Source: an uncultured Pelagibacteraceae bacterium (GTDB lineage: Bacteria > Pseudomonadota > Alphaproteobacteria > Pelagibacterales > Pelagibacteraceae). From it: 64,000 nt of DNA. How positions within the stretch are numbered: position 1 is the first letter of the stretch; every line of letters begins with the position of its first letter. The notes under the pieces are model-generated. The model worked only from the letters and a program-made list of their open reading frames with translations, made no database searches and was not told the DNA's origin. A program made the position numbers and the translations under genes. Positions 28,286 through 28,340 of this stretch are shown in pieces. The stretch lies in assembly GCA_902571095.1 (NCBI GenBank), contig CACGAV010000002.1, forward strand, positions 1 through 64,000, written 5' to 3'.

Positions 28286-28313
28286 TTGACACATACTTTA
28301 GAATAATTATAAA
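28286..28313 (+). promoter_or_regulatory. Predicted katG promoter: TTGACA-N16-TATAAA
   Basis: TTGACA at 28286-28291, TATAAA at 28308-28313, upstream of katG ATG 28341. Confidence 0.65.
28297..28313 (+). promoter_or_regulatory. Candidate Irr operator (ICE-like palindrome)
   Basis: TTTAGAA-TAA-TTATAAA, one mismatch from an ideal TTTAGAA-N3-TTCTAAA palindrome; overlaps the katG -10; downstream of irr. Confidence 0.6.
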
Positions 28314-28340
28314 GTAGTTATAATTAGAAATTAATACAAT

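Follow-up and report, generated by a model that had tools for sequence, protein, structure and literature searches.

The irr-katG locus

The window, i.e. the whole 64-kb stretch of DNA analyzed (64,000 nucleotides), contains on its plus strand the gene irr (27840..28262), which encodes an Irr-type regulator of the Fur family with 140 amino acids (NCBIfam IrrA, 6.5e-40; Pfam FUR). It is followed on the same strand by katG (28341..30518), a catalase-peroxidase of type A with 725 amino acids (NCBIfam PRK15061 and TIGR00198, both above cut-off), and, immediately 3' of katG, by a gene for a DUF2061 membrane protein (30520..30774, plus strand). The latter gene is also found 3' of katG at the loci of the same genus and probably shares the katG transcript; its product is a possible functional partner of KatG. 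The gene irr is divergent from fabA-fabB-fabI, with fabA on the minus strand (27262..27768; the mechanically predicted open reading frame begins at 27783 with TTG). This synteny is conserved: fabA adjoins irr in relatives and in other Alphaproteobacteria as well. The named irr loci nearest to that of the window belong to uncultured Pelagibacteraceae, which places the genome within SAR11. A second Fur-family gene, of the classical Fur/Mur type, is located at 12236-12664.

The gap between irr and katG measures 78 bp and contains both the katG promoter and a predicted Irr operator (ICE). The promoter consists of a -35 hexamer TTGACA (28286..28291, plus strand) and a -10 hexamer TATAAA (28308..28313, plus strand), separated by a spacer of 16 bp. 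The putative operator, TTTAGAA-TAA-TTATAAA (TTTAGAATAATTATAAA; 28297..28313, plus strand), differs at one position from the palindrome TTTAGAA-N3-TTCTAAA. An earlier sequence-only reading had claimed such a one-mismatch Irr-like element over the spacer and the -10 of a TTGACA-N16-TATAAA promoter; sequence, coordinates and overlap all proved exact. The position that breaks the palindrome, a change from C to A, falls within the -10 hexamer, and we attribute the deviation of this half-site to the fact that its bases must also serve as TATAAA.

No other site with at most one mismatch occurs in the 64-kb window, for which a first-order Markov model predicts 0.36 sites by chance (0.00034 for the 78-bp gap). 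A scan of the whole genome with up to two mismatches, however, yielded 57 sites versus 120 for the reversed control motif. We therefore dropped the genome-wide scan as proof of the element; without such enrichment, the single site of the window is, taken alone, only suggestive. The same counts, together with the very AT-rich genome, are what would be expected if an AT-rich promoter simply had a TATAAA box that happens to resemble an Irr box. Comparison across genomes bears directly on this explanation.

Conservation of the element in Pelagibacterales

An element with at most two mismatches follows irr in 79 out of 80 named Pelagibacterales irr loci. The exception is locus L094, where the gap between irr and the adjacent katG lacks an element, yet irr's own promoter carries one. 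In most of the 80 loci, a second element is present upstream of irr. The genus of the window departs from the other Pelagibacterales in this respect: its irr promoter (27770-27839 in the window) contains no autoregulatory element, and the corresponding matches in L080 and L081 have five mismatches. Sites with at most one mismatch number 106 in the 22,704 positions of the irr promoters and irr 3' gaps, versus 5 in the 617,273 positions that make up the rest of these loci, i.e. the density of near-perfect elements is about 576-fold higher at the irr locus.

Within the genus, the order irr-katG, together with an element over the katG promoter, is kept by every relative that has a detected irr and an assembled sequence 3' of it. 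An alignment of 23 same-genus sequences has invariant columns at 6/6 positions of the -35 hexamer and 15/17 positions of the element, compared with 17/55 in the remaining gap, and the two variable columns of the element are spacer positions. Other genera and a second family contain, at the same place, TTTAGAATTATTATAAA, TTTAGAATGGTTATAAA, TTTAGAACCATTATAAA and ATTAGAACGATTATAAT. The inverted repeat is thus conserved at the target promoters, with at most one mismatch at most katG loci. This conservation across genomes places the element far above chance. Furthermore, the left half TTTAGAA, which is required by no promoter element, is invariant in the 23 same-genus sequences, and the occurrence of the element is associated with irr. 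We consider a chance likeness of the -10 region refuted by these comparisons and give it almost no weight.

Genomes without irr

The sequence-only reading had named conservation in orthologous katG promoters as the result on which its operator stands or falls, and the prediction survives when relatives with and without irr are compared. In 14 genomes, katG has an intact upstream region and irr was not found; 13 of these lack the element, the best matches having four to five mismatches. Among the 13 are the one-contig genomes G034, G061, G063 and G190, which are 99-100% complete. In G003, G007 and G029, katG lies beside fabA at the former place of irr and has no element. Genome G035 (83% complete; locus L213) contains katG beside fabA with the element, and no irr was detected in this genome. 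At this locus, either irr alone was deleted, so that katG is now under the irr promoter, or irr was missed or falls into an assembly gap. In genome G050 (locus L043), a katG gene that is not linked to irr keeps the element (TTTAGAATCATTATAAT), and irr is present on another contig. On the KatG tree, the presence of irr and that of the element both change three times, and they change together; a sign test on these three independent pairs does not reach significance, because there are just three contrasts.

These genomes also bear on the question of which protein occupies the site. Boxes of Fur-family regulators are alike, and the classical Fur/Mur-type gene of the window could encode the protein that binds in place of Irr. 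Against this, the irr-less genomes G029, G061 and G063 keep a Fur-family match, while their katG genes are without the element, which makes binding by the other Fur-family protein improbable. On the strength of the sequence comparisons, we conclude that the element at 28297-28313 is very probably a genuine operator through which Irr acts on katG.

Exchange of the gene after irr

In the named Pelagibacterales loci, the gene after irr is a katG of type A, a katG of type B (about 54% identical to type A) or a rubrerythrin gene (rbr). According to the irr tree, exchanges among these three occurred at least seven times, four of them required by well-supported branches, a count that is approximate because the tree is based on few columns; the element stays in place throughout. 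Of 26 irr loci outside SAR11, most have rubrerythrin after irr, about half contain the element, and none has katG in this place. The arrangement fabA-irr-rubrerythrin is the common one in these Alphaproteobacteria. Most simply, rubrerythrin would be the ancestral gene, which SAR11 lineages replaced by katG on more than one occasion while the operator stayed the same. Since the operator was kept despite the exchange of the downstream gene, the results suggest that the irr locus of SAR11 constitutes a one-locus peroxide-defence circuit.

Regulon size and promoter architecture

The strict pattern occurs zero to three times per genome in 16 genomes. In irr-bearing genomes, 10 out of 11 strict sites with a pyrimidine-N-purine (Y-N-R) spacer are located at the irr locus; strict sites with other spacers lie away from it and are mostly intragenic. 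Hence, the regulon that can be recognized by its motif amounts to one locus. The Irr regulon of SAR11 is apparently reduced to this locus, with the gene after irr and, in most lineages, irr as its members. Rodionov et al. 2006 is the likely source of earlier Irr predictions for SAR11, and elements at irr and rbr may be among them; apart from that study, the literature searched contained no katG target of Irr.

The half-site that deviates from the palindrome is usually the one overlapping TATAAA, with a good -35 hexamer 15-17 bases upstream. In many promoters of type-B katG and rubrerythrin genes, another element lies upstream of the -35, at a distance of 30-32 bases (about three helical turns) from the first. 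Such pairs flanking the -35 are seen at loci L093, L109, L112, L114, L117, L120, L123 and others, and L150 has three elements. This architecture fits a repressor that blocks the polymerase, and activation from the upstream site is possible.

The Irr protein

The best NCBIfam models for the irr product are IrrA (136.2 bits; curated cut-off 150) and Irr (122.3 bits; cut-off 170), whereas the PerR models score far lower (PerRB 69.8 bits, cut-off 250; PerRA 48.4 bits, cut-off 200), so that the protein is not nearest to PerR. The assignment of the upstream neighbour of katG as an Irr-type gene is supported by these best models, both below their cut-offs, by the fabA-irr synteny and by the HxH/HHH cluster of the heme-binding type (H96 and H98 in 81/81, H97 in 80/81 Irr proteins). 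The N-terminal heme regulatory motif is a feature of Bradyrhizobium japonicum Irr and not of every Irr. Its CP dipeptide occurs in none of the 81 Irr proteins; the motif is also absent from the Irr proteins of Rhodobacter sphaeroides and Brucella (PMC3413700). The residues H41, D90, H96, H98 and D107, kept in 81/81 proteins, align with H37, D85, H91, H93 and D104 of PerR. Irr therefore possesses all five residues of the PerR regulatory metal site, including the equivalent of Asp104.

Proposed mechanism and inducing signal

We propose that a dimer of Irr, the product of the adjoining gene, would bind TTTAGAA-N3-TTATAAA. Because the element overlaps the spacer and the -10 of the katG promoter, bound Irr would cover both and block RNA polymerase; judging from the position of the element, repression by Irr is likely. 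Oxidation of the metal/heme site at the histidine cluster by peroxide, with heme or iron present, would lift this repression. The katG gene would then be switched on at times of increasing peroxide, provided that there is heme to equip the enzyme. The inducing signals may be heme/iron and peroxide combined.

What is more difficult is to weigh these signals against each other. With the same operator and the same protein, Irr could accumulate when heme or iron is low and, as the sequence-only reading had predicted, repress katG, which would spare heme and iron, until heme-bound Irr releases the promoter. Such a response follows the general logic of Rhizobiales, and Irr represses under iron depletion in all species that had been investigated at the time (PMC3413700). 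It would suit KatG as a heme enzyme; moreover, the heme-binding histidine cluster of B. japonicum Irr (PMC4700492) is conserved here, and heme is bound even by Irr proteins that lack the heme regulatory motif (PMC3413700). On the other hand, besides the absence of this motif, many SAR11 genomes have the non-heme rubrerythrin in the same slot, so that heme sparing is not the common denominator of the targets. Furthermore, in the nearest published data, from iron-limited Candidatus Pelagibacter ubique, rubrerythrin mRNA rises 1.57-fold and the Irr protein is unchanged (PMC2864753); provided that the gene concerned (SAR11_0399) adjoins irr in that organism, this runs counter to a plain low-iron repression model. 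We regard low heme or iron as a possible but rather doubtful primary signal.

Alternatively, Irr could act as a metal-based peroxide sensor in the manner of PerR, with iron secondary: hydrogen peroxide would oxidize a ligand histidine and derepress katG or rbr. The five aligned and invariant ligands speak for this, as does the fact that almost every target scavenges peroxide. The corresponding residues of B. japonicum Irr, His63 and the cluster His117-119, make up the site that activates peroxide, and the protein, His63 included, is oxidized as in PerR (PMC4700492). No match to the OxyR model above cut-off was obtained in 12 SAR11 genomes; this absence is weak, because the model is stringent and only 1 of 14 control genomes exceeds the cut-off. 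Another point against a PerR-like sensor is that IrrA and Irr, not PerR, are the nearest curated families. To us, peroxide sensing of this kind has close to an even chance. Both the set of ligands and the exchange of one peroxide-scavenging target for another agree with release by peroxide and/or oxidation of heme at least as well as with repression at low iron, and such release is at least as likely. A more specific version, which we advance tentatively and hold to be short of an even chance, is that SAR11 Irr with its PerR-type metal site is a dedicated single-locus peroxide switch in which the enzyme is repeatedly exchanged and the operator fixed, and in which the primary signal is something other than iron starvation.

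SAR11 bacteria rank among the most abundant cells of the ocean, and their set of regulators is small. To our knowledge, their control of hydrogen peroxide is poorly known, and it matters to neighbours that rely on peroxide scavenging. The irr-katG locus offers a directly testable unit of regulator, operator and target, and the irr locus in general is a clear case of an operator that outlived repeated replacement of the gene under its control.

Comparison with known systems

The closest counterparts are the Irr/ICE regulons of Rhizobiales and Rhodobacterales (Bradyrhizobium, Brucella, R. sphaeroides), which likewise combine an Irr-type protein with a 17-bp element similar to TTTAGAA-N3-TTCTAAA, a repressor-type position on the promoter and targets in peroxide and iron handling. 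The ICEs of mbfA and of ccpA, a heme peroxidase gene, are bound by Irr in R. sphaeroides, whose irr mutant has better peroxide resistance and in which katE is no direct Irr target (PMC3413700). In SAR11, by contrast, the regulon apparently consists of the irr locus alone, katG is the predicted target, one half-site is fused with the -10, and, as compared with B. japonicum, Irr lacks the heme regulatory motif.

The PerR regulon of Bacillus subtilis shares the five metal-ligand positions, and PerR represses catalase and peroxidase genes; its 7-1-7 box resembles the katG element read on the minus strand. Unlike PerR, the SAR11 protein is nearer to the Irr families, and its peroxide response is a predicted one. 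Finally, the fabA-irr-rubrerythrin locus of other Alphaproteobacteria has the same gene order, and an element there separates irr from the gene that follows, but in the loci examined the target there is rubrerythrin and not katG.
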